A stretch of DNA of 50,282 nt from Trichocoleus desertorum ATA4-8-CV12 (GTDB taxonomy: Bacteria > Cyanobacteriota > Cyanobacteriia > FACHB-46). The position numbers and the translations under genes are program-made. The notes below the pieces were generated by a model. That model saw nothing but the letters and a program-made list of their open reading frames with translations. It searched no databases and had not been told where the DNA came from. Numbering within the stretch: position 1 is the stretch's first letter; each line of letters starts with the position of its first letter. The DNA is taken from positions 1 to 50,282 of the forward strand of contig JAHHIL010000044.1 in assembly GCA_019358975.1 (NCBI GenBank). Reading direction: 5' to 3'. Shown here in pieces: positions 14,203 to 40,107 of the stretch.

Positions 14203-16013
14203 GGGGTAAAGGTAGCGAAGATACTGTTGGCGAATTCATCAGAGAAAAATGAAGCTTGGCGTCTAGCCTAGGATGAGAGTAAAGCTTTACAGCTCAGCAG
14301 AGGTGTAGCATGTCCATACAACCCCAGCCCATTCCTCCAGTTCCAGAGGATACCGCAGCAGTCGCACGAGCTGCTTTTCCCAAAGGTAACCTCTACCTTC
14401 AAATCCGCGATACACTTGGCAGCCTCTATCAAGACGAATCTTTTGTCTCACTCTTTTCCAGGCGAGGACAACCTGCACAATCTCCCTGGCGGTTGGCTTT
14501 AGTTTGTGTGATGCAGTTCATGGAAAATCTCTCTGACCGCCAAGCTGCTGATGCTGTTCGAGCTCGCATCGATTGGAAGTATGTCCTCAGTCTGCCACTC
14601 AGCGATCCAGGATTCAATTACTCGATTTTGAGTGAGTTTCGCGATCGCCTGGTGGCAGACAATGCTGAATCCCTGTTGCTAGACCCGTTGCTAGAACAAT
14701 TACGTGAGAAGGGATTACTCAAAGGACATCAGCGGCAACGCACCGATTCCACTCATGTTCTCGGGGCAATTCGAGTATTGAATCGCCTCGAAACATTGGG
14801 AGAGACCTTTCGAGCTGCGCTCAATAGCCTAGCGGTTGCGGCTTCAGATTGGCTAGAGCCACATTTACAAGCAGCTTGGTTTGAGCGCTATCATCGGCGC
14901 ACTGAGAACTATCGCTTGCCTAAATCAGACAGTGAACGCGAAGCATTGGGTCGCACGATAGGCCAAGATGGATTGACATTGCTAGATGTTGTTTATCATG
15001 CCTCTTCTCCAGAGTGGTTACGACATGTTCCAGCCATAGAAACCCTCCGACAAGTTTGGCTCCAGCAATTTTATGCACTAGGTGAAGATGGCGCTCTCCA
15101 ATGGCGATCGCCTAAAGACATGCCACCGTCTACGCTAGCGATACATTCTCCCTATGATGTGGCAGCCCATTACAGCACCAAACGAAGTGTGGATTGGGTG
15201 GGATACAAAGCTCACCTGACTGAAATCTGCGATGAGGCTTGCCCCCATTTCATCACTGGCGTTTATACAACGCTCTCCACAACCCCAGATGATGCAGTCG
15301 TTGATGCAGTTCATGAAGGCCTATCAGAGAGGACGCTGCTTCCCAAAGAACACCTGATGGATACAGGATATATAACCGCTGCCCATATCCTCAACAGTGA
15401 CAAAAAGTATGGTATTGACTTGGTTGGAGCAGTGCGAGGCAATCCCAGCTGGCAGAGTCGAAAAAACTCCAAGTTTACTTCAGACCAATTTGCCGTCAAT
15501 TGGAATGAGCAAACAGTAACCTGTCCTCAAGGACATCAGAGCATCATTTGGAGAGAAAAGATCGATAACCGGAGTTTGCCCGTCATCCATGTGCATTTTT
15601 CACAAGCTGATTGTCGCCGCTGCCCCGTTCGCAAACGCTGTACTCACTCAAAATATGCTCGCAGGCTGACACTACAACCGCAAGCCAAATATGCTGTTTT
15701 ACAGCAACGGCGGCAAGAGCAGGAAACCGCAGAGTTTAAGGAGCGCTATCAACAGCGAGCGGGAATTGAGGGAACGTTATCCCAGGGAGTCAGACGTTCG
15801 GGTCTACGGCAATCTCGCTATGTAGGATTAGCGAAAACGCATCTTCAGCATATTCTTACCGCAGTTGCTCTCAATTTGATTCGTCTGGATGCTTGGCTCT
15901 CAGGAGTTCCCTTAGCAAAAACTCGTACCTCTCGATTCCTGGAGCTTAAGTCTCGAGTTGCATAGATTTTTCTCTGATGAATTCGCCAACAGTATCTTCG
16001 CTACCTTTACCCC
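14203..16013 (+). mobile_element. IS1182-family insertion sequence, copy 1 (1811 bp)
   Basis: It has 48-bp perfect terminal inverted repeats (14203-14250 and 15966-16013), outermost bases GGGGTAAAGGTAGCGAAG. It encodes one intact transposase. The left flank is CTATA and the right flank ATCTA, so it has no matching target duplication of its own. Each flank matches the opposite flank of copy 2 (38297-40107), which indicates recombination between the copies. Confidence 0.92.
14310..15965 (+). CDS. IS1182-family transposase
   Basis: A 551-aa transposase, identical in protein sequence to the one at 38404-40059. It has the N-terminal DUF772-type region (SPWRLALVCVMQFMENLSDRQAADAVR, then FNYSILSEFRDRL). 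The DDE catalytic domain starts at RTDSTHVLGAIR and ends around RAGIEGTLSQGVRRSGL. Between them is a zinc-ribbon-like cluster (CRRCPVRKRCTHS). The stop codon sits immediately before the right terminal repeat. The only coding difference from copy 2 that I saw is silent (15939 C versus 40033 T). Confidence 0.94.
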   Translation: MSIQPQPIPPVPEDTAAVARAAFPKGNLYLQIRDTLGSLYQDESFVSLFSRRGQPAQSPWRLALVCVMQFMENLSDRQAADAVRARIDWKYVLSLPLSDPGFNYSILSEFRDRLVADNAESLLLDPLLEQLREKGLLKGHQRQRTDSTHVLGAIRVLNRLETLGETFRAALNSLAVAASDWLEPHLQAAWFERYHRRTENYRLPKSDSEREALGRTIGQDGLTLLDVVYHASSPEWLRHVPAIETLRQVWLQQFYALGEDGALQWRSPKDMPPSTLAIHSPYDVAAHYSTKRSVDWVGYKAHLTEICDEACPHFITGVYTTLSTTPDDAVVDAVHEGLSERTLLPKEHLMDTGYITAAHILNSDKKYGIDLVGAVRGNPSWQSRKNSKFTSDQFAVNWNEQTVTCPQGHQSIIWREKIDNRSLPVIHVHFSQADCRRCPVRKRCTHSKYARRLTLQPQAKYAVLQQRRQEQETAEFKERYQQRAGIEGTLSQGVRRSGLRQSRYVGLAKTHLQHILTAVALNLIRLDAWLSGVPLAKTRTSRFLELKSRVA

Positions 16014-17322: not shown

Positions 17323-18483
17323 TCAGGTATAGAGGATAGTTCTAATTGCCCCAATGGTACTGGATAAGACATGAGCTGCTGCCTCAACTTCCTCATTAGT
17401 CGTGAACTTACCTATTCCAATCCGGAGTGCACCCTCAATCAAAGATTCTGGAAGAGCCATTTCATGGAGAACATGAGAGGGAGTTTCAATACCAGTTGAA
17501 CAAGCTGCTCCTGTAGAAATTGCTATTTTTTGACGAACCCTAGCAATAATTGCACTGTTGGGAATGTTTGGAATTGAGATGTGAAGGTTTCCTGCTAGTC
17601 GATTCTCAGCATCCCCATTGACTATCAAATCGGTTACTTCTCTAGATAAGAGAGCTTGAAGACGGTCGCGCTTGCTTGCGATCGCCCTTTCATCCTCCTC
17701 CATCTCCAGCGATCGCAACCGGCAAGCTTCTCCCAACCCTACAATCCCTGGAACGTTAAGAGTGCCCGATCGCATTCCTCGCTGATGACCACCACCAAAT
17801 ATAAGTGGTTCCAATTGATAGCCTCTACGCACAGCTAGCGCTCCAACACCTTTAGGACCGTAGAGCTTGTGGGCAGAGATTGCTAGGTAGGTGATGCCCC
17901 ACTCTTCAAATTGCATGGGAATTTTACCGACTGCCTGAGAGCCATCACATAGAAAAGGAATGCCATAGCGTTGAGCAATTCGCCCAACCTTTTGAATAGG
18001 GTAAATGTTGCCAATCTCGTTGTTAGCTGCCATGACACAGAGCAGAGACATCCCCTTAGTGCAGACCTGCTCCAAATGTTCGAGGTCAAGCCTGCCTCTG
18101 GAATCTATTTGCAGATAAACTAGTTCAGCACAACCTCGCTTCTCTAAAGCGCGACAGGTATCAAGGACTGCTTTGTGTTCGATCGGCATTAAGCCAATTC
18201 GATGGGGGTTTGTGGAGTTAGGGGTTAGGCCCCCCTGAATTACTAGATTGATGCTTTCAGTTGCACCGGATGTCCAAACAATTTCCCCCGGTGAGGCTCC
18301 TATGAGGTCAGCAACTTGTTTAGCAGCTTGCTTAACAGCGGTCTCAGCGCGATCGCCCTGCTCATGATCAGTGCTGCTAGCGTTGCCAAACTCTGTAACC
18401 ATGTAATGGTAAATGCGATCAGCTACTCGTGGATCAACGGGAGTTGTTGCATGGTAATCAAGATAAATCACACTTCTAATCAC
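17323..18483 (-). CDS. sspA: Cysteine desulfurase of the phosphorothioation system (SspA/DndA)
   Basis: A 386-aa class V aminotransferase-fold enzyme of the IscS/NifS/DndA type. It takes sulfur from cysteine as a persulfide and passes it to the DNA-modifying enzymes. The PLP lysine is K206 in ISAHKLYGPKG, and the persulfide cysteine is C328 in STGAACSTG. The N-terminus YLDYHATTPVDPRV is typical. It starts with GTG, 9 bp after the stop of the DndB-like gene, and is the last gene of the operon. Its place beside sspBCD and a DGQHR gene marks it as the dedicated sulfur donor rather than housekeeping IscS. Confidence 0.9.
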   Translation of the reverse strand: MIRSVIYLDYHATTPVDPRVADRIYHYMVTEFGNASSTDHEQGDRAETAVKQAAKQVADLIGASPGEIVWTSGATESINLVIQGGLTPNSTNPHRIGLMPIEHKAVLDTCRALEKRGCAELVYLQIDSRGRLDLEHLEQVCTKGMSLLCVMAANNEIGNIYPIQKVGRIAQRYGIPFLCDGSQAVGKIPMQFEEWGITYLAISAHKLYGPKGVGALAVRRGYQLEPLIFGGGHQRGMRSGTLNVPGIVGLGEACRLRSLEMEEDERAIASKRDRLQALLSREVTDLIVNGDAENRLAGNLHISIPNIPNSAIIARVRQKIAISTGAACSTGIETPSHVLHEMALPESLIEGALRIGIGKFTTNEEVEAAAHVLSSTIGAIRTILYT

Positions 18484-18492
18484 CTATTAGTC

Positions 18493-19818
18493 TTAATCTT
18501 CTTCATCTTCCTCGTGAGGTTGATCATTTTGTCCAGACCAATTGATAAGTGGAAGTAGGGAAGCTTTTTTATTACCAATAGCATCACGATATTTCTGCTT
18601 GAGCTCACGAACTTTTACTGATGTTCTAAGCCCTAAAGCATGGTTGATCATTGTGGCGATGAGTGATCTCTCTTTTCTTCCACCAATAATGGAACGTGCT
18701 AATGGATTCCAGATTACACCTGCCCAGGGTGCATCATCAATATTCATTGAAACCTGAGTCATAATTGCTACAATTACATCTGGAATTGACTTTCTTTGAA
18801 TACCAGCTTGTTTGATAACCTCTGCAACAACATACTGACCAACTGGACGTAGAAAAACATTACCACCATAAATAAGTTTTTGATGGTCGTTTATAGTAGG
18901 TAAACCATCAGAATCAAGGAGAAGACGGAGATCACCCGGTTTTTTTCTCCCGCTTTTAACAGCATCAAATCCAGGGCAACAATCGAGCATCTTTTCCCAT
19001 ATTTCTTCTAAAAACAAATAATATTTATCCAAATCATCACTTGAAGGTCTAAATCTTTTGAAATCGTTATCAATTTGTAGACCCCCTTCATAAGCACTAA
19101 GCAGAATCTCGTTTACTTCATACAGAGAGGCAAGCGTTGTAATGTACGATTCATTTGCTTTACTTGGTGCAAGTTGCTTAGAGCCCAAAGTATTTAAAAC
19201 TAATCCTTTTAACACATTACTTTCTTTTACCAATCGACGTGAAATGATCGCTACTCCGTCATCTTCATCAATGGCAATATTCATACCAGAAGATGTTGGT
19301 TTTGCGCGCCGATTGAGAGTAGAAAATAATCTGCGAGTTCGTTGTAGCCCTTCCTTAGAATCCTCATGTTTAAGGATAATTACAGTAATCTCTTCTTTTG
19401 CCAAGTCAGGTTCTATCTTTATGGCTTCTTGGATAGACTTTAATCTGTGTTGTCCATCCAAAGCGTAGTAGACCTGACTTCCATCAAAACGAAGTAATCC
19501 AAAGCCATAACTGCCTCTGTCTTTATCATCTAGGAGTTCATGCTCATCAACTCTTACTGGTGAAAACTCTGGTTCTCCTCCATAAACAGCCACGACTAAA
19601 GCACCGTAGAATCGCTGCGGCTCATGGATAAGGTAAGGAACCATTTCTTTTTCAACACGATCTTGAATTGCCCTTTGGATTAAAGCATCAAGATCCTTAT
19701 CTGTATGAATTTCCTCTGCAAGCCTACACTCACGGGCGACTTTACCCAATTTCATTACGGTAACGTAGTATCTCCAATCACCCATCCGAGCTTGTAATGC
19801 TGGCACGTAATCTGGCAC
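18493..19818 (-). CDS. dndB: DGQHR-domain protein, DndB-like
   Basis: A 441-aa protein with the diagnostic motif YYALDGQHRLKSI (DGQHR at residues 121-125), an extended helical middle and an acidic tail (QPHEEDEED). DGQHR proteins are found with dnd clusters; DndB acts as a transcriptional regulator and influences where DNA is modified, with ATP- and DNA-binding activity reported for the family. Start is GTG 19818, with AGGAGA upstream. It sits 28 bp after the GIY-YIG gene and 9 bp before the cysteine desulfurase. A DndB homologue beside single-strand-type ssp genes is a mixed arrangement. Confidence 0.85.
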   Translation of the reverse strand: MPDYVPALQARMGDWRYYVTVMKLGKVARECRLAEEIHTDKDLDALIQRAIQDRVEKEMVPYLIHEPQRFYGALVVAVYGGEPEFSPVRVDEHELLDDKDRGSYGFGLLRFDGSQVYYALDGQHRLKSIQEAIKIEPDLAKEEITVIILKHEDSKEGLQRTRRLFSTLNRRAKPTSSGMNIAIDEDDGVAIISRRLVKESNVLKGLVLNTLGSKQLAPSKANESYITTLASLYEVNEILLSAYEGGLQIDNDFKRFRPSSDDLDKYYLFLEEIWEKMLDCCPGFDAVKSGRKKPGDLRLLLDSDGLPTINDHQKLIYGGNVFLRPVGQYVVAEVIKQAGIQRKSIPDVIVAIMTQVSMNIDDAPWAGVIWNPLARSIIGGRKERSLIATMINHALGLRTSVKVRELKQKYRDAIGNKKASLLPLINWSGQNDQPHEEDEED

Positions 19819-20685: not shown

Positions 20686-21492
20686 CTATAAGTGACATGC
20701 CAAACAGGGTAACGTGTCATCATCTTCATCGAGTACCGCTTCCAGCACTTCTGCCAACGGTTGATTGGGCTTTGTTTTTGCCTCTCGTACGATCGCTCGT
20801 TCATGGTCTGCAATAATTTCATCCTTACGTGCTAGCAATCCCAGCAATGTTTCGCCCTGCGTCCAAGTGTAGGTTCGACCATCGCTATGGTTTTGCTCGT
20901 AGGCGATCGCCTTGGCAAATAGGTCAGGATGCTCCTGCGCTAGCATCACCCACTCATACTTCCGCTGGAAGAAGCAGAAGTAACATCCTGAGCGACTGCG
21001 CCAGCGGTAATAGTCTGGTAAGCCAATGCCACTTTCCTCTAACAACCGAATAATATCTGCCTTAACTAGCCCATGTTCCTTAAAGGGGTAACGGGCTTGA
21101 ATTGTTGGCTTTGTCGAAATATAGCCTTCCCGGTGTTCATCTGCACGAATGCCAATATAGCTGATGGCATCGTCATCACCGATAAACTCCTCCAAAGGCT
21201 TAATCTTCATTTGTTTTGTACACCATCGCACTTGAGGAGATGGCAAAACGCCTCCATACACCTCTAACCAATGGTCAAAACCGCGATCGGCACTTAAGCG
21301 AATAATTTTGATACCCAGCCGAGCCTCAATGCGATCGAGATAATCATAAGTTTCTGACAGTTCCTTGTGGGTATCACAGAAAAAATACTCCATCGGCAGG
21401 TCAGGGTACTTTTGTCGCATCAGCACCGCTAGGGCAGTACTATCCTTACCCCCTGAAAGCCCCAGAATATGTCGAATGGGCTGCTTCACCAT
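20686..21492 (-). CDS. sspD: PAPS-reductase-family ATP pyrophosphatase (SspD/DndC-like)
   Basis: A 268-aa adenine-nucleotide alpha-hydrolase of the PAPS reductase family. The PP-loop is SGGKDS (residues 13-18). Cysteines in VRWCTKQMK and RSGCYFCFF fit the Fe-S cluster site described for DndC. It activates the DNA backbone phosphate or carries the sulfur during phosphorothioation. It is about half the length of DndC and similar to SspD of the single-strand Ssp system, which agrees with the DUF4007 and ATPase genes upstream. It starts 5 bp after the sspC stop, so it is the third gene of a tight operon. Confidence 0.86.
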   Translation of the reverse strand: MVKQPIRHILGLSGGKDSTALAVLMRQKYPDLPMEYFFCDTHKELSETYDYLDRIEARLGIKIIRLSADRGFDHWLEVYGGVLPSPQVRWCTKQMKIKPLEEFIGDDDAISYIGIRADEHREGYISTKPTIQARYPFKEHGLVKADIIRLLEESGIGLPDYYRWRSRSGCYFCFFQRKYEWVMLAQEHPDLFAKAIAYEQNHSDGRTYTWTQGETLLGLLARKDEIIADHERAIVREAKTKPNQPLAEVLEAVLDEDDDTLPCLACHL

Positions 21493-21497
21493 CTCCC

Positions 21498-24400
21498 TTA
21501 ATCCACCACCTTCGTTTTCCGTTTACCCCGCCTCTGACGGACTTCCTTCAATTCGTCGGGGGTTTGTACCTGCAACACCTCTCTTGCCAATTTAGCAATC
21601 AAAGCTTGCCGCAGTTTAGCATCGTTCCGGAGGGTCGGCTTGTCTAAGATCTCATCCACTAACCGATTCAGTTGTTCTTCCTGGGTCTGGTCAATCCAGA
21701 CAACCTGGTTTAGTTCGTGTCCGTCTGATTTGGTGACGGTAAGCCGATATGCCTCAAAGCCTTCATGGTCAGTCGCTGCAATATCTTTTTGTAAGGCTTC
21801 TAGTCGCTTAAACTGTCGAGCAACATCATTCAGCTTCAATTCAAAGGCAGCGCGATCGTCATCGCTCCAAGTATGGGCAGGCTTATCTGCCAAAATCATC
21901 ATCAGGGATTCTAACCACTCCGTATCTGCCAACATGGTATCGCTCGCCGCTAGCGTAAAGCGCCTCAGCATTGGCTCCAAGCAGCGATCGACCAAGTAGT
22001 TGGCTCTCACACGCAAATCAGGCCGCAAATGCTCTAGGTTACTACGGACTCCGAAAGCAGCATGAAGCAACTGCCGACCAGTACTCAGGAGATTTTCATA
22101 GGTAATCTCTAATTCATGAAGTGCTTTAACCAACCGTTTGCGGAAGGTTCGTGCCGCCGATTCATCATTTGGATCAGCATGCCGAATGGGAGCCAACCCA
22201 CAGGCTTGAGGCAGACTAGTAAACAATAGTTTATCTGGCTCTTGAGCTGTTTGCAACGTTTTCAGGACTGCCTGAGCTTCAGCACTCAGTTGTTGAGTTT
22301 TCAGGGTGTAGGCTGGCAGCTTCTTGACGAACTGGAACAACGGCTTGGCGATCGCCAAGAGCGAAGTGTTCCGTACTCCCGCAGGGACTCGACTCCGCCA
22401 AATAGCTTCCAATTCTTGAAAGACCTGGGATCGCAGCCCTGCCATTTCAAACGATTTAACGGCAAACCGTCCGGGTTGTTTCACTAACAACTCAAAATGA
22501 GGAGCCGTCAACACCGGAACAAACGTCCCATCATGATAAAGCCCGACATCATCAACGTGGTAAAGCAGCATAGCAGCTAACAGCACTGGGATTACCCCTG
22601 GTTTAACGCCATAGGGTGGAGCCCCTAGCAAGGCGTATAGCTGATCGAGGCTGCGCGGTTGTTCAGCAGATTTCAAACAAAAGGATTCAACTGACTGCCA
22701 GAGACTTGATAAATCTGTCCTGCCATTGCCTTTTTGTTTGGCAGAACGATTTGCAATTGGCGGATAGAAACCCCATTCTCCATTCTCCTGGCGGTGAATC
22801 CCTGGCTCTGCCAGCACCGAGTAATACATGCTCACTTCAGGACCATAGCCCTTCAGTCCCAATTTCTCCTGATCTTCATGGTTCAGCATGCCTTCAATCA
22901 ACTCACGCCGCGCCTTTGCCCCTTGAGAGGTAAGTTCTCGCCGGTTAATCAATTCATTCCAAAGAGTAGGGCTATGGCAATAGACCTTCTCACACACCTC
23001 CGATAATGCTGCATTGAGATCGGCGCTATCTCGAATCTCCTGCTGTTCTCCTAAAAACCAGGAAAAGCTTTCAGAATTAGCGGGATCAAGTGCCTGAGTT
23101 AATGTCTCATCCATCAAGTTTTCTGCTTGCACCAACCGCTGCCGCACTTCCCGCCGAGCAACCCCATCCGTTTGCAATTCTGAAGCGGTTGATTGAATCT
23201 TTTCTAAGGCGGCAAATTCGATCGCGCGGTCGCGCAAGGTTTTGAGATGAGCCGTATTAACCACAATAAGAGGCTTACCATCTTTAGTGGTAGAAGGGGG
23301 AGCTTCTACAAGAGGTTGTGCCTCCATCCAGTACACGATCAAGCCGTCATAATCTGGCTTAGATACTTGAAGGGTGGATAGGTCATGAGTCTTATCTCCA
23401 TATCGCCGCTCAAAATAGCGGAGGGTTCCCACTCGGTAACTGTGGCGTTGAGCAACCAATGGTTTTAAGGCACGCACCCGTGACAAGATCTCAACTAGCG
23501 ATCCCCGTTCTTGTTCAAAATACTGGTCGATCGCAATCTGAACATTGAAATCAGATCCCTCCCAGATTCGCAGTTCATCCAACTGCTTACGGTAAGTAAT
23601 TAGGTTTTTCTCTAAAAGGGTTTGAATCGCCGTTTGCCAAGGGTTATCGCTAGTCGTTTCATCAGGCGACTCACACAATGGCAAGATTGACAGGGCTTGA
23701 GTTGCCCGTAGTGCCCCTGCCGATGTAATTAAATTAAGCGTACCAATCGTCTTGAGTGCCTGAATTACTTCAGGTGACAGATCCATTCGACGGCTGGCAT
23801 CTGCAACAACCCCCTGAACCTCTAGCCACTTCTGAACATTGGGACGAGATGACAACCCCATCCCTGCTGACTCTACAAAATAGTCGTAAACCTGATGGAT
23901 TTTTAGCGTTGGAATTAAATTTTTATTGAGAGCCGTTGAATCTAAGAATTGCTTAAAGGAATATGGCTCAGAACTCGTCAGGAAGGTAAAGAGAGAGCGA
24001 TCGTTTTGAGCATACCTCGTACACAGCTGGGGTAATACCAGAGAGGTCAGTGGATGAAGTGGATAAGCCTCTGCTAGTACCGCAGACGACAAATCACTTA
24101 ATTCTAGGTGCTCAGCTAGATGCTCAAACCATACCGTTGCTCGTTGCTGAATTAATTCTTTCAAAGCGCCTGCTTCGTTATGGATAATGGCTTGTCCCAG
24201 TAAACGAGTCATCTGTTCCGGCGATTCTGTGAAGGGAATATCCTCAAATCGCCCGTGAATTTTTGACCATTCTTTCCGCTCACTGGAAGCTAACCGTTCT
24301 CCGTAATCCCCAAAGGATTGGTGCAACACCCCAACGAGATACACCTGATAAGGCGTACGTTCAGGGAGTTCTGCGATTTGCTGCAACAGGTATAAGTCTG

Positions 24401-25043
24401 CAACGCCTTGATGTTGAGCTGCAAACTCCAACGTCTTGCCTAACTCATCAATCAGGAGTAGGACATCCGTCTTTGCTGCCTGCGCCACTGCCTGAATCAG
24501 TTGCAGAACTTGCTTTTCCTCAATCGAGTGACCAGCGGCAAGCTCTATCTCTAAGTCTACTAAATCAGCCAATATCTCTGGCTTCTTGCGGCTCCTTCGC
24601 CAAAATATTTCAACCCCTCGCCTTAATGCACGGACGATGGTATGACTGAGAGGCTCCCGCTGAGCAGTGCTAACTGCTTGCACGAGTCCCCGCCGTGGCA
24701 ATCCATCCGTAAGCGCTTGTAGCTCAGGACTGGCTGATCCCAGTGCCCGCTCTGCGATTGTCAACGCTTTTTGTCGCACAGGGCCAGCCTCTGACGCACA
24801 AAGCCCTGCCCAAAAGTGAGCAAATGCTGATTTACCTGTACCGTAAACCCCAGTCAGTGTCCAGGCACGTTGAGGGCTATTTTTAGTAAAAGCAGGTAAC
24901 ATGCGCCGTAACGCATCCACTGCTCGTTCCGTCACAATGTATCCTTCTACAGCATCTGGCAATTCCAGATCTCGCTCTAAATTAACCGAGCGAGCATAGC
25001 GACGGTTGAGGCTAAAGTACTGCGATAAAAATTTTTGAGCCAT
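21498..25043 (-). CDS. sspC: Large ATPase of the phosphorothioation system (SspC-like)
   Basis: A 1181-aa P-loop ATPase. Walker A is TGVYGTGKSAF (about 64-74) and Walker B DVLLLIDELGK (about 193-203), followed by a sensor-like region (VYLVGVLHQSFGDYGERL). The remaining roughly 900 residues are mostly helical without a domain I recognise. Identity as SspC rests on size, the P-loop and the exact position between the DUF4007 gene (5-bp gap) and the PAPS-reductase gene (5-bp gap), the SspB-C-D order. SspC is thought to supply ATP-driven action on DNA during modification. Confidence 0.82.
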   Translation of the reverse strand: MAQKFLSQYFSLNRRYARSVNLERDLELPDAVEGYIVTERAVDALRRMLPAFTKNSPQRAWTLTGVYGTGKSAFAHFWAGLCASEAGPVRQKALTIAERALGSASPELQALTDGLPRRGLVQAVSTAQREPLSHTIVRALRRGVEIFWRRSRKKPEILADLVDLEIELAAGHSIEEKQVLQLIQAVAQAAKTDVLLLIDELGKTLEFAAQHQGVADLYLLQQIAELPERTPYQVYLVGVLHQSFGDYGERLASSERKEWSKIHGRFEDIPFTESPEQMTRLLGQAIIHNEAGALKELIQQRATVWFEHLAEHLELSDLSSAVLAEAYPLHPLTSLVLPQLCTRYAQNDRSLFTFLTSSEPYSFKQFLDSTALNKNLIPTLKIHQVYDYFVESAGMGLSSRPNVQKWLEVQGVVADASRRMDLSPEVIQALKTIGTLNLITSAGALRATQALSILPLCESPDETTSDNPWQTAIQTLLEKNLITYRKQLDELRIWEGSDFNVQIAIDQYFEQERGSLVEILSRVRALKPLVAQRHSYRVGTLRYFERRYGDKTHDLSTLQVSKPDYDGLIVYWMEAQPLVEAPPSTTKDGKPLIVVNTAHLKTLRDRAIEFAALEKIQSTASELQTDGVARREVRQRLVQAENLMDETLTQALDPANSESFSWFLGEQQEIRDSADLNAALSEVCEKVYCHSPTLWNELINRRELTSQGAKARRELIEGMLNHEDQEKLGLKGYGPEVSMYYSVLAEPGIHRQENGEWGFYPPIANRSAKQKGNGRTDLSSLWQSVESFCLKSAEQPRSLDQLYALLGAPPYGVKPGVIPVLLAAMLLYHVDDVGLYHDGTFVPVLTAPHFELLVKQPGRFAVKSFEMAGLRSQVFQELEAIWRSRVPAGVRNTSLLAIAKPLFQFVKKLPAYTLKTQQLSAEAQAVLKTLQTAQEPDKLLFTSLPQACGLAPIRHADPNDESAARTFRKRLVKALHELEITYENLLSTGRQLLHAAFGVRSNLEHLRPDLRVRANYLVDRCLEPMLRRFTLAASDTMLADTEWLESLMMILADKPAHTWSDDDRAAFELKLNDVARQFKRLEALQKDIAATDHEGFEAYRLTVTKSDGHELNQVVWIDQTQEEQLNRLVDEILDKPTLRNDAKLRQALIAKLAREVLQVQTPDELKEVRQRRGKRKTKVVD

Positions 25044-25048
25044 TTACC

Positions 25049-25966
25049 TCACCTCGTCTGGTAATAATCTTGCAAAATTTGCTCCGCCAGAATCAGAGGA
25101 TCTTCTGTAAAGGAGAATTGAATTAATCCAGCTGTGTCCGATAGACTAATTGGCTCATGCTGTTGGGCAACTTGCTCAATTGCATTACACAAAGCACTTT
25201 CTGATAGCTTGAAGGCTAACCCTGGGCTACCTGCTTCATATAGTAAGCGAGAGACGGCGATCGTACCCTGCCCTTGCCGATCCTGGGCTGCAAACTCTAG
25301 ACAAGCAGAAACGACGACAGCTGGGGGTAAATTTCTTTTCGTCCCTACCCGGAACGTGTAGATACGAGTATCGCCAGCGGTATGCAACAGCCCTAACTCG
25401 GTAAAAGGGCAATCAATGGAGTCTTCTGTAAACCCCGATTTGCTTTGCTGCTCTACATACATTTTTAAGAGGCAACGAACGTCTTTTTGAAACGAAGACG
25501 AAGCAGTTCGTAGCCCTTGCTGTTTCTGGTAATAGTTCTCCAAAGCAACGAGCAGGTCTTGTTCAGTAAATTCGACTGAACGGAATAAATTAAAAGTGAA
25601 ATACCAGGTAGTTGCATAGCAAGGGAGTTTAAGCAACTGCCAGTGCAGCAACCAGAGCGAGGCGGAATCCTCTAAAAATGGGTCCCATCCTGTGTCGGCT
25701 AGTAACCGCTGTCCAAAGTCTGTCGGTTGATCATCCTGTAACAGCTTAAAAGCCTGTTCCCAATAGCGGATGGAGCGAACCATGTTTTTTCCAACCCCAA
25801 GCTGAATGGGAGCGCCCTCATTCAAAAACACCCTTGGATCTTGAATGGCACAATCGAAGCCCTTCTTCAGCCAGCCAAACCGGGGGTGAAAAGTTTCGTG
25901 GCGAGCAAAGACACTCGATTGACGAGTATCAACCCTTCCAAGATCAAGACTGATTTGCTCTACCAT
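25049..25966 (-). CDS. sspB: DUF4007 protein, SspB-like DNA nickase of phosphorothioation
   Basis: A 305-aa member of the DUF4007 family, shown by SVFARHETFHPRFGWLKKGF near the N-terminus followed by LGVGKNMVRSIRYWEQAF. SspB, the DUF4007 protein of the Ssp system, nicks one DNA strand as the first step of single-strand phosphorothioation. This gene is first in the sspB-sspC-sspD operon and divergent from the associated methyltransferase. DUF4007 is absent from double-strand Dnd clusters, so it marks this island as Ssp type. Confidence 0.87.
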   Translation of the reverse strand: MVEQISLDLGRVDTRQSSVFARHETFHPRFGWLKKGFDCAIQDPRVFLNEGAPIQLGVGKNMVRSIRYWEQAFKLLQDDQPTDFGQRLLADTGWDPFLEDSASLWLLHWQLLKLPCYATTWYFTFNLFRSVEFTEQDLLVALENYYQKQQGLRTASSSFQKDVRCLLKMYVEQQSKSGFTEDSIDCPFTELGLLHTAGDTRIYTFRVGTKRNLPPAVVVSACLEFAAQDRQGQGTIAVSRLLYEAGSPGLAFKLSESALCNAIEQVAQQHEPISLSDTAGLIQFSFTEDPLILAEQILQDYYQTR

Positions 25967-26184: not shown

Positions 26185-28263
26185 ATGCCCTGTGGTCTGG
26201 CTCAATTCGAAGCGATCGTGATTACCTGTCAACGAAGTAAGGTAGGTAAGCTGTTGCCCGATGCCCTATACGTTCACATCTCGGCCCTACAGGCATTAGA
26301 TCCGCTTCTGCAAGCCTATGAAAGCGAGGCAAGGCAGATTGCCTCTTCTCCTAAGGGGATTACCGTAGTCAAATTCAGTACAGCGAAGCCGACCGTTTCT
26401 TACCTGTTCTATCCAGAATTTGACACTGATCCTCACCCTGCCCTTCAATCAAGCATCCAAGTGAATCTACAAACCCGTGAGGTGAAGCACCGGGACTATG
26501 GGGATGCCGATAACCCGTTTATTCTGCATCGCAAGGAAACTTTTGTTACGATTAATTATCCCTATTACCAGCAATTTGCAGCACTAACTCGGCAAGAAGA
26601 AGCTCTGGGCCTGCTTGACAATCCTCGGGCGATTGGCACTCGCTTGGTTTGGGAAGAGCGGCTGGCTCAGTTCAAGGTGGCATTCCAGGGGCATACCTTG
26701 GTTCATCGATCGCTTCTTAATGCCCAAGCTGCCCAAGTCAAAATCGATCGCCACAAAGCTGCTATTAGCCGCAATGACTTGTCTAAACCTGTTCGTCTGG
26801 CATTGGAAGCTGGACTGTTGAAGCAGAGCATGACATTCTTCGACTACGGTTGTGGTCAGGGAGGTGATGTTGAGCGGGTCACTAAGTTGGGTTATGAGTG
26901 TTCTGGTTGGGACCCCCATTATCGTCCGGATGTAGCTCAAGTTGCTGCTGATGTCATCAATTTAGGCTACGTGATCAATGTCATTGAATCTCAGGCAGAG
27001 CGTCGAGAGGCGTTGGTTCAAGCTTGGGATCTGACTCAGCAAGTACTGATTGTGGCTGCGCAGGTTCTCATCGCTCAGGGGAATAGCCAAATTGCCTACG
27101 GCGATGGGATCATTACCAGCCGTAATACGTTTCAGAAGTATTACGACCAGGATGAACTGAAGATTTATATTGACCAAGTGCTGGGAGTTGACTCTATCCC
27201 AGTAGCTTTGGGGATTTACTTTGTTTTCCGGGATGAAGCTCAGGCACAAAGTTTTCGAGCCTCCCGATTCCGATCGCGCGTTAGTGTTCCTAAGGTTCAG
27301 CTCAGCAATAAGCGGTTTGAAGATTACAAGGAACTGCTAACTCCCCTAATGACTTTTTTCACTGAGCGGGGGCGGTTGCCAACCCTAGAAGAGTTGCCTG
27401 AAACTGCAACACTCAACAGTGAGTTTGGCAACCTAAAGCGGGCCTTCCAGATCGTTCTGCAAGCTACAAACCCGCAAGAGTGGGATGCGATTAGCGATCG
27501 CCGCCGTCAAGATTTGTTAGTTTATTTGGCGTTGAGCCATTTTAGTCGTCGTCCCAAGCTACGGGATTTAACACCCGTGGTTCAGAATGACATCAGGAGT
27601 CTGTTCGGGGGCTATCAACAAGCTTGTGCTGCGGCAGATCTAATGTTGATGACCTTAGGCAATCTGGAGGTAGTTGAGGAACGCTGCAAGAGTAGTGCGA
27701 TCGGGCAAAAGCGACCGAATTCACTGTGGGTTCATGTGTCGGCGATCGAGGCACTTGATCCTTTGCTTCGGCTCTACGAAGGTTGTGCCTCTCGCACGAT
27801 CGGTCGCCCCCAGGAAGCCAACGTCGTTAAATTTCACTTCCGCAAGCCTAAGATTTCTTATTTGTTCTATCCAGCCTTTGACACTGATCCTCATCCTGCG
27901 CTGCACACGAGCATGCAGATTGATCTGCGGGATTTGCACGTTCACTACCGTGACTATGACCCAAAGGACAATCCACCCCTACTGCATCAGAAGGATCTGC
28001 TCGTCACGACCGAATATGCTCTCTATGCGAAGTTTGCTAAGCTAACTCGTCAAGAATCAGATTGGGGGTTACTGGATGATATAAGGAGCATTAGCGATCG
28101 CCGAGGTTGGCAAAAGTGCTTAGAGGAGCATTGTGCTGAATTAAAGGGGCATCGTGTATTGTGGCGAAAAGATGCTGACCCCTATCAGGTGAAGTTAGTG
28201 CGATCGGCTATTCGTGCAAAGCAGGCAGGGCGAACAGCATCTGCCGCAGAATCTGCTGGCTGA
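26185..28263 (+). CDS. DNA phosphorothioation-associated putative methyltransferase
   Basis: This 692-aa protein resembles the Dnd-associated putative methyltransferases (TIGR04096 type). The central Rossmann methyltransferase domain has the SAM motif FFDYGCGQGGDV (about 218-229). It is flanked by two copies of one domain: residues about 5-175 and about 492-655 share LYVHIS/LWVHVS, ALDPLL, VVKF, SYLFYP, FDTDPHPAL and HRDY. Homology reaches back to about residue 6, supporting the start at 26185 despite no clear ribosome site. The target base and the link to sulfur modification are unknown; it may add a second mark or protect sites. Transcribed divergently from sspBCD. Confidence 0.82.
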   Translation: MPCGLAQFEAIVITCQRSKVGKLLPDALYVHISALQALDPLLQAYESEARQIASSPKGITVVKFSTAKPTVSYLFYPEFDTDPHPALQSSIQVNLQTREVKHRDYGDADNPFILHRKETFVTINYPYYQQFAALTRQEEALGLLDNPRAIGTRLVWEERLAQFKVAFQGHTLVHRSLLNAQAAQVKIDRHKAAISRNDLSKPVRLALEAGLLKQSMTFFDYGCGQGGDVERVTKLGYECSGWDPHYRPDVAQVAADVINLGYVINVIESQAERREALVQAWDLTQQVLIVAAQVLIAQGNSQIAYGDGIITSRNTFQKYYDQDELKIYIDQVLGVDSIPVALGIYFVFRDEAQAQSFRASRFRSRVSVPKVQLSNKRFEDYKELLTPLMTFFTERGRLPTLEELPETATLNSEFGNLKRAFQIVLQATNPQEWDAISDRRRQDLLVYLALSHFSRRPKLRDLTPVVQNDIRSLFGGYQQACAAADLMLMTLGNLEVVEERCKSSAIGQKRPNSLWVHVSAIEALDPLLRLYEGCASRTIGRPQEANVVKFHFRKPKISYLFYPAFDTDPHPALHTSMQIDLRDLHVHYRDYDPKDNPPLLHQKDLLVTTEYALYAKFAKLTRQESDWGLLDDIRSISDRRGWQKCLEEHCAELKGHRVLWRKDADPYQVKLVRSAIRAKQAGRTASAAESAG

Positions 28264-28348
28264 TTTCAAGCTCTACCAATAATGACTCGGATGCCATCTG
28301 TTATTTCCTAGGTTAAAAATTGAGGAAGATATGCCCTAAAAACACGAT

Positions 28349-30697
28349 ATGGCTGATTCGCCCAAATCCACCGAAGCATCCTCTCCTTCCCCAGAGCCTA
28401 CCTCCGAATCTAACAAACCTAGCCCGGAGCGTCGCTTTATTCAACGGCAGGTGGTACAGCCTTTAATTCAGTGGATGCCATTGGGAGGCAGTGGCTGGCT
28501 ATTTGCTAGCTTTTGGTTAAAGCAAGAATGGACACAAGTTCTCCTTACCTTTCCCGTCACGATTGTGACGGCAGTATGGGCAGCTTACAGCAAGAACTTT
28601 GTTGAGCGGTTGTCAGAAATTTATGCAGAAAAGGGCAAACAAGATGCCGAAGTCTTAAATCAGTTGCTAGCCAACCTGGATGAGACAATTAAGTGGCAGT
28701 TTTCAGGCTTTGAAGCGAAATATCTGGAACTGCAAGCCAAACCTTGCCAAGAATACATAACCGAAGGCTTCAACCCAGATAAAACTGCGATCCCTATGTT
28801 GGAGGAAGTCTTCGTCCCGCTCCAGCTCAATGGTTATCTGATTGAGGGTAATGGACGCTTTATTGAGAACAGAAAAGATTCTGCAAAAGCAAACCAATCG
28901 TCTGAAGGAATTAATATTTGGGATTTAATTCTCAGATCACGCAAGAATCCAACATTTCGGCAAATGGCGATTCAGGCACAGGGAGGATTTGGCAAAACCA
29001 CATTGTTACGCCACATTGCCTTGATCTATGGGCAAGGAAAATACCGCCGCTACCGGGCACCAAAACTCATTCCTTTCTTGCTGTACTTGCGTGATTGGCG
29101 AGACAAACTATCACAGCCTGAGTTGCCAACTTTGCCCGATCTAATTAAGAACCATTTTCTACCCAAGTTATCGCCCAACAATCCACTCAAGCCCCCACCC
29201 GCATGGGTTGAAAACTTGCTGGAGCAGGGGGGAGCATTGGTGATGTTTGATGGCTTTGATGAGTTAGCTGAAGACCAACGTCAACGAGTTAGCCAGTGGA
29301 TTAGCCAACAAATGCAGGAGTACCATCGCACCACATTCATCATTACATCTCGCCCTGCCGGATTTAAAGACTATGTTGCCAAACGCCCGGCTGTACCACT
29401 ATTTGTCCAGAAGTTTAAGTCTTACCAACAAGAGCGATTCATCAAGCGGTGGTATCTCTGCCAAGAACGTTGTGCCCGCAGTGAGAAGCAGGCCAACCAA
29501 GCAAAAGAGGCCGCTGAGCGCAATGCTCAAAAGTTGTTGACTCAACTGCAAGACCCTGATCGCCCTGAACTGCAAGAGATGGCCGAAAACCCACTCTTGC
29601 TCAATATGCTGGCGACATTTCACCGTTTTGATCCGGGCACTGAGTTACCCAAACGGCGCATTGAACTCTACCGAGGGATCTGCAAACTACAACTCGAAGA
29701 TCGCCCTAGAGCGCGGGGCATTCCCATGCTGTTGCCTTATGAAAAAAGTCATCAGGTATTGCAATCGTTAGCACTGGCGATGGTGAAACGGTCTTCCCCC
29801 CGTGTTTCTTGCCAGTCGTTGATCAGTTTTCTAAAAAAACATCCCCTATTAAAACAAGAAGATGTTGGGGCAGAAGCCTTGCTCAAGCAAATGGTGCAGA
29901 TCAGCGAGTTATTAGTAGAGCGAGAACTAGGCTACTATGAGTTTCCGCATCTCAGCTTTCAAGGCTATTTTGCGGCCAGCTTTTTAGCCCAAAATCATAT
30001 CAAATCACTCGCTCTAGTGAGAGAAAACTGGGATAAAGCTTCATGGCGGGAAACGATCTTGCTTTACAGCGCTCAATTGCCCCCTCGGTTGATGACTGAT
30101 GTGATTCAACAAGTCTGCGATTTAGGCAAAGAAGCTGCTCAACTGGCCTATGACTGCTTGCGCGAGTATCGCAACCCAGAGAAGCTTGACCCAGGCTTAG
30201 AACAAGAACTCAGAGCACTAACTAGCACGGTACAAACCCTCCGCTACACAAAACTGGAGGAATATCTGAAAAGTAGGCACTGGAAAGAGGCCGATCAAGA
30301 AACCTATCGGCTGATGATTACGACAGTTGGCAGGACGGAGGGAGAGTGGTTTGAACCAGAAGAATTATTGACTTTTCCGCGTGATGAGTTACGGGCGATT
30401 GATGCCCTTTGGGTGAAATACAGCCATGGCATGTTTGGCTTTAGCGTCCAAAAGCAGATTTATGTAGGGTGTGGTGCTAAACTAGACGGCAAATTTCCTG
30501 GTGATGAAATCTGGTGGGAGTTTGGCAATCTCATGGGTTGGCGTAGGAATGGTAAATGGCTGAGTTACTCCCAAGTAGTCGGAACTTCTTTCTCCCTTCC
30601 CAATACAATTCTCCCTGTTATAGGTACTCTGTACTACGGCGTCGATGCGTTGGTGTCCGCGGGGGCATGCTCTCTTCTCTCGCACAAAGACTTGTAA
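28349..30697 (+). CDS. Membrane-anchored NACHT ATPase with C-terminal GUN4 domain
   Basis: A 782-aa protein. Residues 1-30 are a Ser/Pro-rich tail. Hydrophobic segments at about 38-56 and 62-79 suggest membrane anchoring. NACHT Walker A is QGGFGKTTLL (about 211-220), Walker B LVMFDGFDELAE (about 297-308), then the arm LQEMAENPLLLNML and the winged-helix box FPHLSFQGYFAA. The last 140 residues are a GUN4 domain: WKEADQETYRLM, LRAIDALWVKYS, FGFSVQKQIY and LMGWR. GUN4 binds porphyrins and activates Mg-chelatase; here it probably serves as sensor or signalling module. It follows the methyltransferase gene by 85 bp on the same strand, which suggests membership of the phosphorothioation island. Confidence 0.87.
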   Translation: MADSPKSTEASSPSPEPTSESNKPSPERRFIQRQVVQPLIQWMPLGGSGWLFASFWLKQEWTQVLLTFPVTIVTAVWAAYSKNFVERLSEIYAEKGKQDAEVLNQLLANLDETIKWQFSGFEAKYLELQAKPCQEYITEGFNPDKTAIPMLEEVFVPLQLNGYLIEGNGRFIENRKDSAKANQSSEGINIWDLILRSRKNPTFRQMAIQAQGGFGKTTLLRHIALIYGQGKYRRYRAPKLIPFLLYLRDWRDKLSQPELPTLPDLIKNHFLPKLSPNNPLKPPPAWVENLLEQGGALVMFDGFDELAEDQRQRVSQWISQQMQEYHRTTFIITSRPAGFKDYVAKRPAVPLFVQKFKSYQQERFIKRWYLCQERCARSEKQANQAKEAAERNAQKLLTQLQDPDRPELQEMAENPLLLNMLATFHRFDPGTELPKRRIELYRGICKLQLEDRPRARGIPMLLPYEKSHQVLQSLALAMVKRSSPRVSCQSLISFLKKHPLLKQEDVGAEALLKQMVQISELLVERELGYYEFPHLSFQGYFAASFLAQNHIKSLALVRENWDKASWRETILLYSAQLPPRLMTDVIQQVCDLGKEAAQLAYDCLREYRNPEKLDPGLEQELRALTSTVQTLRYTKLEEYLKSRHWKEADQETYRLMITTVGRTEGEWFEPEELLTFPRDELRAIDALWVKYSHGMFGFSVQKQIYVGCGAKLDGKFPGDEIWWEFGNLMGWRRNGKWLSYSQVVGTSFSLPNTILPVIGTLYYGVDALVSAGACSLLSHKDL

Positions 30698-31016
30698 ACT
30701 GTAACATTCGCTAGTTTCAGCTTTTCGTTAACATTGATTTCCATCACATTTTCTACGATGCCATCACGAGGGTGACTGATCCGATATTGGCACCGCGATC
30801 CGTTTTCTCGTCGTTTTCTGGTCAATTATTAGGCTGAACTGAGTACTTCTGACAGCGTTTAATGGCAAACAATAACACCTCTCGACATTCAAACCGAGCC
30901 GAACGAAGTTCGCGATTATTGCAGCGAGTAGTGAGATGGTAGTATGGATAAAGGTTTCGCTACCTTTATCCCTAGTAATAGCCAGTTTGAATTTCCCGAC
31001 GTTTGCGTGGCATAGG
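30698..31016. other. Intergenic region with an IS1182-end-like hairpin
   Basis: 319 bp without a convincing gene. A perfect 9-bp hairpin (GGATAAAGG/CCTTTATCC, 30946-30971) includes TTTCGCTACCTTTATCCC, which differs from the right end of the IS1182 copies at few positions, so it may be a relic of joined IS ends. It could also act as terminator between the convergent NACHT-GUN4 and M15-like genes. Confidence 0.5.
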
Positions 31017-31622
31017 CTAAATCAGGAACCTGGTAGATGCAGGCTTGATCAACTCTACCCAATGTTCAAGTCCTTTTCGCGTTGGTACTCCCTTATCTGT
31101 AAATGTCCAGATGTTTCGATTTTGCTTCTGACTTTGGCTAATATGAATGGGGCGATCGCTTCCATAGTAGTACAGCGAATCAAATGGTAATTGCTGTTCC
31201 AAAATCCACTCCACAAGGCGATTGCTCTCCAACCCCGCAATCTGAAAATCACAGGCAGCACCGAGGCGATCGCAGTAATACTTGCCATTTCGGTTTTTCT
31301 CGTGAGCCATGTGCTGATCACGGCTAGGGTCAACTCGACCATTCTTGATGCCTGTTTCTGGATCCCTTTGACTTAGAAAGCGCTTCAAATCTGTTGAGCA
31401 GAACCCATAGGTTAGATGGAATTGCTCCCTGCTAAAGTGATCAATAATGGGGTCAATAATCCATTGGCAAAGTGATTGTAACGCTGGAATTGTTTCTTCC
31501 AGATTTTCGGGGTATGGGCCAATTTGACTAGAGTACTTCTGGTAGGTCTGCGTGCAGGTACAAAACTCTTGTAGAGTTAGATATTTTCCTAAAACAACTT
31601 TAGGAAGTAACAAGTTTTCCAT
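31017..31622 (-). CDS. M15-like peptidase-fold protein
   Basis: A 201-aa protein with the layout of zinc peptidases of the M15/hedgehog fold. A helical N-terminal part (LTLQEFCTCTQTY) precedes a metal-site-like series: Asp/His in DQHMAHEKN, Asp in LGAACDFQIAG, and a final His in RPIHISQSQ. M15 enzymes cleave D-Ala peptides in the cell wall, but no signal peptide is present, so a cytoplasmic or phage-lysin-like role is possible. It follows parB by 18 bp on the same strand, and thus may be the last gene of the parA-parB operon. It faces NACHT-GUN4. The catalytic assignment is uncertain. Confidence 0.55.
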   Translation of the reverse strand: MENLLLPKVVLGKYLTLQEFCTCTQTYQKYSSQIGPYPENLEETIPALQSLCQWIIDPIIDHFSREQFHLTYGFCSTDLKRFLSQRDPETGIKNGRVDPSRDQHMAHEKNRNGKYYCDRLGAACDFQIAGLESNRLVEWILEQQLPFDSLYYYGSDRPIHISQSQKQNRNIWTFTDKGVPTRKGLEHWVELIKPASTRFLI

Positions 31623-38296: not shown

Positions 38297-40107
38297 GGGG
38301 TAAAGGTAGCGAAGATACTGTTGGCGAATTCATCAGAGAAAAATGAAGCTTGGCGTCTAGCCTAGGATGAGAGTAAAGCTTTACAGCTCAGCAGAGGTGT
38401 AGCATGTCCATACAACCCCAGCCCATTCCTCCAGTTCCAGAGGATACCGCAGCAGTCGCACGAGCTGCTTTTCCCAAAGGTAACCTCTACCTTCAAATCC
38501 GCGATACACTTGGCAGCCTCTATCAAGACGAATCTTTTGTCTCACTCTTTTCCAGGCGAGGACAACCTGCACAATCTCCCTGGCGGTTGGCTTTAGTTTG
38601 TGTGATGCAGTTCATGGAAAATCTCTCTGACCGCCAAGCTGCTGATGCTGTTCGAGCTCGCATCGATTGGAAGTATGTCCTCAGTCTGCCACTCAGCGAT
38701 CCAGGATTCAATTACTCGATTTTGAGTGAGTTTCGCGATCGCCTGGTGGCAGACAATGCTGAATCCCTGTTGCTAGACCCGTTGCTAGAACAATTACGTG
38801 AGAAGGGATTACTCAAAGGACATCAGCGGCAACGCACCGATTCCACTCATGTTCTCGGGGCAATTCGAGTATTGAATCGCCTCGAAACATTGGGAGAGAC
38901 CTTTCGAGCTGCGCTCAATAGCCTAGCGGTTGCGGCTTCAGATTGGCTAGAGCCACATTTACAAGCAGCTTGGTTTGAGCGCTATCATCGGCGCACTGAG
39001 AACTATCGCTTGCCTAAATCAGACAGTGAACGCGAAGCATTGGGTCGCACGATAGGCCAAGATGGATTGACATTGCTAGATGTTGTTTATCATGCCTCTT
39101 CTCCAGAGTGGTTACGACATGTTCCAGCCATAGAAACCCTCCGACAAGTTTGGCTCCAGCAATTTTATGCACTAGGTGAAGATGGCGCTCTCCAATGGCG
39201 ATCGCCTAAAGACATGCCACCGTCTACGCTAGCGATACATTCTCCCTATGATGTGGCAGCCCATTACAGCACCAAACGAAGTGTGGATTGGGTGGGATAC
39301 AAAGCTCACCTGACTGAAATCTGCGATGAGGCTTGCCCCCATTTCATCACTGGCGTTTATACAACGCTCTCCACAACCCCAGATGATGCAGTCGTTGATG
39401 CAGTTCATGAAGGCCTATCAGAGAGGACGCTGCTTCCCAAAGAACACCTGATGGATACAGGATATATAACCGCTGCCCATATCCTCAACAGTGACAAAAA
39501 GTATGGTATTGACTTGGTTGGAGCAGTGCGAGGCAATCCCAGCTGGCAGAGTCGAAAAAACTCCAAGTTTACTTCAGACCAATTTGCCGTCAATTGGAAT
39601 GAGCAAACAGTAACCTGTCCTCAAGGACATCAGAGCATCATTTGGAGAGAAAAGATCGATAACCGGAGTTTGCCCGTCATCCATGTGCATTTTTCACAAG
39701 CTGATTGTCGCCGCTGCCCCGTTCGCAAACGCTGTACTCACTCAAAATATGCTCGCAGGCTGACACTACAACCGCAAGCCAAATATGCTGTTTTACAGCA
39801 ACGGCGGCAAGAGCAGGAAACCGCAGAGTTTAAGGAGCGCTATCAACAGCGAGCGGGAATTGAGGGAACGTTATCCCAGGGAGTCAGACGTTCGGGTCTA
39901 CGGCAATCTCGCTATGTAGGATTAGCGAAAACGCATCTTCAGCATATTCTTACCGCAGTTGCTCTCAATTTGATTCGTCTGGATGCTTGGCTCTCAGGAG
40001 TTCCCTTAGCAAAAACTCGTACCTCTCGATTCTTGGAGCTTAAGTCTCGAGTTGCATAGATTTTTCTCTGATGAATTCGCCAACAGTATCTTCGCTATCT
40101 TTACCCC
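38297..40107 (+). mobile_element. IS1182-family insertion sequence, copy 2 (1811 bp)
   Basis: Same length and orientation as copy 1. The right terminal repeat has one change (40098 T versus 16004 C), so its ends match at 47 of 48 positions. The left flank is ATCTA (38292-38296) and the right flank CTATA (40108-40112), exactly the reverse of copy 1. Confidence 0.92.
38404..40059 (+). CDS. IS1182-family transposase (second copy)
   Basis: A 551-aa protein identical to the product of 14310-15965, with the same DUF772-like N-terminus, DDE domain and CxxC-type zinc-ribbon cluster. Both copies look intact, so either may be the active source. Near-identity of the two copies implies that the duplication, or the fusion that brought them together, is recent. 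Confidence 0.94.
   Translation: MSIQPQPIPPVPEDTAAVARAAFPKGNLYLQIRDTLGSLYQDESFVSLFSRRGQPAQSPWRLALVCVMQFMENLSDRQAADAVRARIDWKYVLSLPLSDPGFNYSILSEFRDRLVADNAESLLLDPLLEQLREKGLLKGHQRQRTDSTHVLGAIRVLNRLETLGETFRAALNSLAVAASDWLEPHLQAAWFERYHRRTENYRLPKSDSEREALGRTIGQDGLTLLDVVYHASSPEWLRHVPAIETLRQVWLQQFYALGEDGALQWRSPKDMPPSTLAIHSPYDVAAHYSTKRSVDWVGYKAHLTEICDEACPHFITGVYTTLSTTPDDAVVDAVHEGLSERTLLPKEHLMDTGYITAAHILNSDKKYGIDLVGAVRGNPSWQSRKNSKFTSDQFAVNWNEQTVTCPQGHQSIIWREKIDNRSLPVIHVHFSQADCRRCPVRKRCTHSKYARRLTLQPQAKYAVLQQRRQEQETAEFKERYQQRAGIEGTLSQGVRRSGLRQSRYVGLAKTHLQHILTAVALNLIRLDAWLSGVPLAKTRTSRFLELKSRVA

Follow-up and report, generated by a model that had tools for sequence, protein, structure and literature searches.

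Hypervariable C-terminal ends of cyanobacterial NACHT-GUN4 proteins, probably renewed with the help of a linked RAYT transposase

What does a GUN4 domain do at the C-terminus of a NACHT ATPase, in the place of the sensor? The question is raised by a gene of Trichocoleus desertorum ATA4-8-CV12 that lies on the window (the whole stretch of DNA analysed, an entire contig of 50,282 bases with ParA/ParB genes, from a genome of 6.06 Mb in 90 contigs that holds six GUN4 copies). A sequence-only reading of this DNA had proposed a NACHT protein with C-terminal GUN4 at 28349-30697, and profile matches confirm both domains: PF05729 at residues 204-368 (E 7.4e-15, above cut-off) and PF05419 at residues 629-761 (E 3.1e-30; 105.6 bits vs a cut-off of 29.2). 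The gene and its main parts are as follows.

28349..30697, + strand: NACHT-GUN4 gene, an open frame of 782 aa with 80 related loci
28529..28585, + strand: moderately hydrophobic segment, residues 61-79 (Kyte-Doolittle 1.44; low AlphaFold confidence), a possible membrane contact
28958..29452, + strand: NACHT domain, residues 204-368, with P-loop GGFGKTT and Walker B LVMFDGFDE
30233..30616, + strand: conserved part of GUN4 up to the GHLP equivalent (here TILP, Pro756), from profile match and alignment

Residues G212, G213, G215, K216, T218, D301, G302, D304 and E305 are invariant among 68 aligned sequences. The AlphaFold model has a mean pLDDT of 82, with low confidence over residues 36-89 and values below 50 at 755-769, and among PDB structures it matches NOD2, NLRC4 and NLRP3 best, with GUN4 itself (1z3x) matched at E 8e-5. 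The earlier suggestion that the protein is a STAND switch carrying GUN4 where a sensor would stand is supported. NACHT ATPase and C-terminal sensor are common to this protein and to bacterial NACHT/STAND defence proteins; unlike in those, the sensor here is a hypervariable GUN4. The two-segment membrane anchor that had also been proposed was not confirmed: residues 61-79 form the sole segment reaching a Kyte-Doolittle mean of 1.44, below the usual threshold of 1.6, and AlphaFold is unsure over 36-89; among 67 orthologues, segments of at least 1.4 numbered none in 12, one in 45, two in 9 and three in 1. NCBIfam DS8 and EruA matched NACHT-GUN4 only weakly (E 1e-4 and 1e-3). When relatives were sought in 292 genomes sampled across the phylum, with mostly no more than three candidates scored per genome, at least 12 other genomes were found to hold a NACHT-GUN4 protein at nearly full length, and 80 NACHT-GUN4 loci came from scanning species genomes (9 of 81 rows were left out of one tabulation of loci).

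The gene follows a stretch of ssp and related genes.

20686..25966, - strand: SspD, SspC and SspB (PADLOC)
26185..28263, + strand: phosphorothioation-associated methyltransferase (TIGR04096, E 2.1e-265), the upstream neighbour, whose adjacency to NACHT-GUN4 is not conserved

The members looked for in an SspABCD-E set are all present in the window: SspB (25049-25966), SspC (21498-25043) and SspD (20686-21492) on the - strand (PADLOC E 1e-121, 0 and 1.2e-116), together with a cysteine desulfurase, a class-V aminotransferase (Aminotran_5) at 17323-18483, in the SspA/DndA place. The NACHT-GUN4 start lies 85 nt past the stop of the methyltransferase, just as the sequence-only reading had measured it. 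Its adjacency to sspBCD is likewise present in the window, but the linkage is weak, since SspBCD and the methyltransferase stand beside NACHT-GUN4 at only one other locus (L072), and NACHT-GUN4 is not a regular component of ssp loci. The survey for defence neighbours that had been suggested, now run on 115 neighbours from 46 loci (of 182 neighbours listed), returned few members of defence families, with PADLOC matches merely scattered, and a defence context as the rule for NACHT-GUN4 is rejected. The PADLOC PD-T4-6 match (E 1.6e-30) spans the GUN4-side region alone and is uninformative on function.

Several other features of the window may be recorded here. A DndB-like gene (PF14072, E 8.5e-32) at 18493-19818 has the desulfurase on one side and the SspD end of the Ssp system on the other. 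A second NACHT gene, at 10673-13144, encodes an N-terminal HTH and an NCH2 helical domain preceded by an LDLDLD repeat. Two IS-type transposase genes (551 aa, their translations the same by eye) at 14310-15965 and 38404-40059 flank the ssp and NACHT-GUN4 stretch in a composite-transposon-like manner, and a pentapeptide-like protein at 44118-45314 has a tandem RINDLDSGLDSDLD repeat that is open on both strands. Rfam gave no match over positions 28000-31200.

What sets the protein apart is its end. The Pro of the GHLP equivalent is kept in 67 of 68 aligned NACHT-GUN4 proteins, and at the next codon entropy rises from 0.11 to 3.76 bits. The DNA from this point on divides into four features, of which the hypervariable segment, the tail with its three-frame stops and the transposase remnant had escaped the sequence-only reading.

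30617..30671, + strand: hypervariable (HV) segment of the window copy (VIGTLYYGVDALVSAGAC), which replaces the LxNxLR loop (entropy jump at codon 757; pLDDT <50 at 755-769)
30672..30708, + strand: conserved DNA tail CTCTTCTCTCGC...GACTTGTAAACTGTAACATT, extending over the stop codon (pattern conserved in relatives)
30774..30794, + strand: degenerate copy of a second conserved motif (in relatives CAGCGATCCGTTACCTGGCACC) between tail and transposase gene, from motif comparison
30825..30959, - strand: remnant of a RAYT (Y1/HUH) transposase gene, convergent, N-terminal part only (hmmsearch E 7e-12)

The HV starts right after an anchor, GGACACCTCCC, which codes for GHLP. Beyond it, the C-termini of relatives are of three kinds (...LLSRRDL, ...LFSRAETCKL and ...SSLASRLVNCNI), and all of them result from a single DNA stretch, TCTTCTCTCGC...GACTTGTAAACTGTAACATATAA, read in its three frames and extending beyond the stop. 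With up to three mismatches allowed, this tail pattern occurs in 46 of the 292 genomes and the reversed control pattern in none; it occurs once in the window, which is also its single occurrence in the whole source genome, and viral contigs scanned with it gave 0 matches. Anchor and tail could be parsed at 87 of 109 sites, the 22 dropped having no recognized anchor. At these 87 sites the HVs are about 18-177 nt long, with base frequencies of G.38, T.31, A.19 and C.12, and at 86 of them the GUN4 frame reads through to the tail, which it enters in all three phases (34/22/30). Stops within HVs are almost confined to the two frames that are not read: 1 in 1682 codons of the GUN4 frame vs 84/1659 and 90/1629 in the others (pooled 174/3288; Fisher p 1e-30). 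The HV is thus free in frame and selected for open reading. Each of the three frames of the tail contains a stop, which is kept in the phases that the gene leaves unused in 52/53, 53/57 and 61/64 cases, and because of these stops an HV of any length leads to a C-terminus that is short and safe. The near-equal amino-acid make-up of the HV across the three frames points to random sequence, unselected but for the need to stay open. Nine segments contain copies of the anchor inside the HV vs 0.12 expected from shuffles (none of 500 had more than 2). At one locus (L227) the tail is doubled, the copies ~70 nt apart, the first slightly decayed and a short G/T-rich insert between them, which looks like an insertion intermediate; two sites in another genome (G284 C1:1168992 and 1169043) have a similar look.

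Comparison of close relatives indicates how this variation arises. Among 175 gene pairs at least 75% identical upstream, the HVs were mostly at random identity. The pair L170/L172 is 0.95 identical upstream and 0.87 downstream of HVs that match at 0.47, where random HV pairs average 0.44, and for the NACHT-GUN4 orthologues L017, L024 and L221 identity is 0.95-0.96 upstream, 0.97 downstream and 0.40-0.54 in the HV (11 tail sites were left out of this comparison). Other cases show inheritance or partial change: L019 and L024 have an HV in common at 0.91, one pair (L061/L063) has inherited an identical HV, and L161/L163 share a 13-nt stub and diverge beyond it. As judged from these alignments, renewal of the HV exchanges the entire stretch of DNA between a constant anchor and a constant tail. 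Sampling was of one genome per species; the sole same-species plasmids found, three of Fremyella/Tolypothrix (L215-L217), carry identical GUN4 genes without the tail, so that this strain comparison was uninformative.

The HV-GUN4 end is not confined to NACHT proteins. A scan of 45 further HV-GUN4 proteins found Pkinase in 23, NACHT in 8, TIR in 4 and caspase in 2, which by domain content is the parts list of conflict systems. At L218 (17032-20489) a MoxR ATPase gene stands directly ahead of an HV-GUN4 gene, an arrangement that resembles ternary conflict systems (PMC7159879, in excerpt). The same source, again in excerpt, proposes lectin folds varied by diversity-generating retroelements (DGRs) as hypervariable tips of conflict proteins (PMC7159879). 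Probably the window gene belongs to a large cyanobacterial set of immune-type receptors, with a NACHT, protein kinase, TIR or caspase part at the N-terminus and GUN4 at the other end. Known defence genes are seldom found beside them, and their role in defence is an inference.

The RAYT gene behind the tail is the sole neighbour with a fixed position from locus to locus: at 22 of the 80 loci a Y1_Tnp gene stands directly behind, in convergent orientation. We extended the comparison to 125 distinct GUN4-tail sites, 114 of which have at least 600 nt downstream, and found RAYT homology at 34 of the 114, all 34 convergent and no more than 260 nt away, vs 0 of 92 control stretches; 19 of the 34 retain frames of at least 200 aa, and the other 80 sites have no detectable adjoining RAYT. 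Tail and RAYT genomes also coincide (16/23 vs 30/269, p 1.3e-9, with RAYT counted at E <1e-40 and the family f20, described below, left out). Intact RAYTs of relatives match PF01797 (Y1_Tnp) at E 6e-17 to 1e-18, the HUH and Tyr motifs SNHxHYL and YIHxNP are conserved in 14 aligned RAYTs, and NCBIfam REP_Tyr_transpos (NF047646) scores 68-77 bits, below its cut-off of 80. Between tail and RAYT most aligned copies carry the second DNA motif, TACCTGGCACC, which is degenerate in the window. The remnant of the window, 68% identical over 35 aa (E 1.2e-8), is the sole such match in the source genome, in which no intact RAYT of this kind was found. A Cylindrospermopsis curvispora plasmid (NZ_CP060823.1) carries two GUN4 genes with unrelated HVs and the same tail in different frames, and an annotated 'transposase' lies 90 nt beyond one of them.

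The enzyme shares with RAYT/TnpAREP the Y1_Tnp domain, the HUH and YIHxNP motifs and its existence as a single gene beside a conserved DNA element (PMC6006769 and PMC8266576, in excerpt). Unlike known RAYTs, it is encoded convergently to, and behind, a receptor gene whose end is hypervariable, and no such receptor-linked role appears in the excerpted RAYT literature (PMC6006769, PMC8266576). Some RAYTs of the clade have no recognized GUN4 gene alongside (L191-L194, L200, L209); those at L191-L194 have a different C-terminal tail (CQVSETPEVTEV...) and possibly act in trans or serve REPs. We had also considered that the presence of a RAYT might predict younger, more biased HVs; this was rejected, HVs beside intact RAYTs being no richer in G/T than others (p 0.66).

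A second passenger family accompanies RAYTs in small-genome cyanobacteria (f20). These RAYTs are 46-48% identical to the query RAYT and convergent to genes of an unrelated protein that has a signal-peptide-like start and no Pfam match. The passenger genes (L198-L204, L244-L259) end in RDVRVHD plus a short C-terminus that is different in each, most of the paralogues adjoin a convergent RAYT, and ~140 nt before most of these RAYTs stands the motif TACCTGGCAC, the same as at GUN4 sites. Of 14 ends parsed, 11 are from one genome (G189), where pairs up to 99-100% identical upstream fall to 0.55-0.58 over the first 60 nt after the anchor. The HV base composition differs here and is not G/T-rich (A.26, C.18, G.28, T.28), and the process in this family may therefore not be the same in every detail.

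We consider the best explanation of the whole to be a RAYT-driven renewal of the ends of immune-type GUN4 receptor tips, with a probability of roughly 0.6. TnpAREP is reported to cleave single-stranded DNA at C|T, which yields a 3'-OH that could serve for priming synthesis or for attack (PMC8266576, in excerpt), and a CT-rich run opens the tail exactly at the HV edge; it is because of this correspondence that RAYT-driven renewal is rated the most likely reading. The GUN4 ligand loop would have been turned into a hypervariable binding tip, renewed through replacement of the DNA between the anchor GGACACCTCCC and the fixed tail. By analogy with C|T cutting by TnpAREP, the RAYT, as the putative writing enzyme, would nick the CT-rich start of the tail, the candidate cut being the C|T in CTCTTCTCTC of single-stranded tail DNA; the free end would be trimmed back, receive new G/T-rich sequence, for the most part untemplated, and then be joined to the tail again, and cells with an open and useful new HV would be kept. 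Binding of the target, probably a phage protein, by the tip is predicted to make the NACHT part oligomerise and so switch on the N-terminal effector. The window copy is probably frozen, because its RAYT is a remnant.

Next in rank, possible but less likely, is that the RAYT is a bystander that favours the tail, with HVs renewed otherwise (by error-prone end joining, a polymerase or a trans-acting enzyme), a reading that would leave the receptor interpretation unchanged. It would account for the HVs, of the same base bias, at the 80 of 114 sites without a RAYT, for one genus that replaces HVs between 95%-identical genes with no adjacent RAYT, and for a source genome that holds the remnant only. 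A bystander would not, however, be expected to lie in one orientation within 260 nt in 34 of 34 cases, nor to accompany, in the same clade, a second and unrelated passenger that is also hypervariable; moreover, four sampled genomes (L191-L194) carry a RAYT elsewhere that possibly acts in trans.

That GUN4 here binds a porphyrin or bilin and reports the photosynthetic state to the NACHT switch is very unlikely. The fold and family membership are clear, being common to this domain and to GUN4 of magnesium chelatase (1y6i, 1z3x), and GUN4 in conflict systems has generally been proposed as a tetrapyrrole sensor (PMC7159879, in excerpt). In Synechocystis GUN4, numbered from our alignment, the Pro of GHLP is residue 208 and is followed by LxNxLR with Asn211 and Arg214; excerpts of two studies link this motif to bilin binding (PMC10156173) and the Arg214 equivalent to porphyrin binding (PMC8967248). 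The LxNxLR stretch is exactly the part that is hypervariable, from codon 757 on, in the 68 aligned proteins, and so the porphyrin or light input of the sequence-only reading loses its basis. That reading had itself named the loss of porphyrin-pocket residues as telling against it, and the window protein has VIGTLYYG where the loop would stand. A porphyrin pocket in NACHT-GUN4 is therefore rejected, conservation ending at the Pro before LxNxLR. Unlike GUN4 of magnesium chelatase, the domain lacks this ligand loop and is fused to NACHT, kinase, TIR or caspase; the alternative raised earlier, GUN4 reused as a binding module, is the one that gains support.

Silent cassettes or captured foreign DNA, such as phage spacers, as suppliers of the HVs have about equally poor odds. 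Replacement of whole segments and the doubled tail in L227 would suit such a source, but the window HV has no second copy in its own genome and no phage match, a 160-nt HV stretch matched only at chance level (E 0.1-0.5), and the base bias (G.38, C.12) with frame-equal amino-acid make-up points to unselected random sequence. Among the two HVs searched, a phage or cassette origin found no support.

Still more improbable is a DGR, in which a reverse transcriptase would copy a template repeat into the C-terminus with errors at A. DGRs diversify conflict proteins in cyanobacteria (PMC7159879, in excerpt), and they resemble the present system in the targeted renewal of C-terminal tips of signalling and effector proteins and in a conserved 3' DNA edge that borders the variable region (PMC7159879 and PMC7517822, in excerpt). 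Against this, the source genome has no template repeat, the tail being single and the HV without a second copy, on which ground a DGR there is rejected; its two RVT_1 genes (any RT type) are on other contigs. Unlike in DGRs, neither the length nor the frame of HVs is constant and no non-A positions are kept, the fold is GUN4 and not lectin-type, and the linkage is to an HUH transposase, not a reverse transcriptase. Least probable of all is neutral drift of a free, unconstrained C-terminus, which the low structural confidence at residues 755-769 would fit and which is already contradicted by flanks 95-97% identical around HVs at random identity, by the near absence of stops from one frame and by a DNA tail that stays conserved past the stop.

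RAYT-driven renewal recalls a different comparison. V(D)J junctional diversity arises from trimmed ends, untemplated additions and frame-shifting outcomes, followed by selection for open reading. All four have their likeness in the proposed scheme; unlike in V(D)J joining, no joining of separate gene segments is seen and the enzymes are different, and the three-frame stop tail takes the place of out-of-frame loss. To our knowledge, targeted protein diversification in bacteria has so far been essentially the work of retroelements (and cassette switching), and our search of the open-licence PMC literature (bioRxiv being outside its scope) found no work that connects GUN4 with RAYT or describes GUN4 ends as hypervariable. 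We lean, if only slightly, towards an adaptive-type diversification unlike DGRs, in which a RAYT clade has receptor tips rewritten randomly in two or more passenger families. The variable site is short and fixed, and its renewal is therefore measurable by one amplicon per gene in clonal cultures. Such a transposase-linked diversification, if true, would answer in its own way the problem solved by V(D)J joining, through random sequence of any length or frame, and would form a bacterial counterpart of the junctional diversity of antigen receptors. It would also give a function to RAYTs, whose cellular use is debated, and would shift GUN4 from a pigment sensor to a recognition scaffold.
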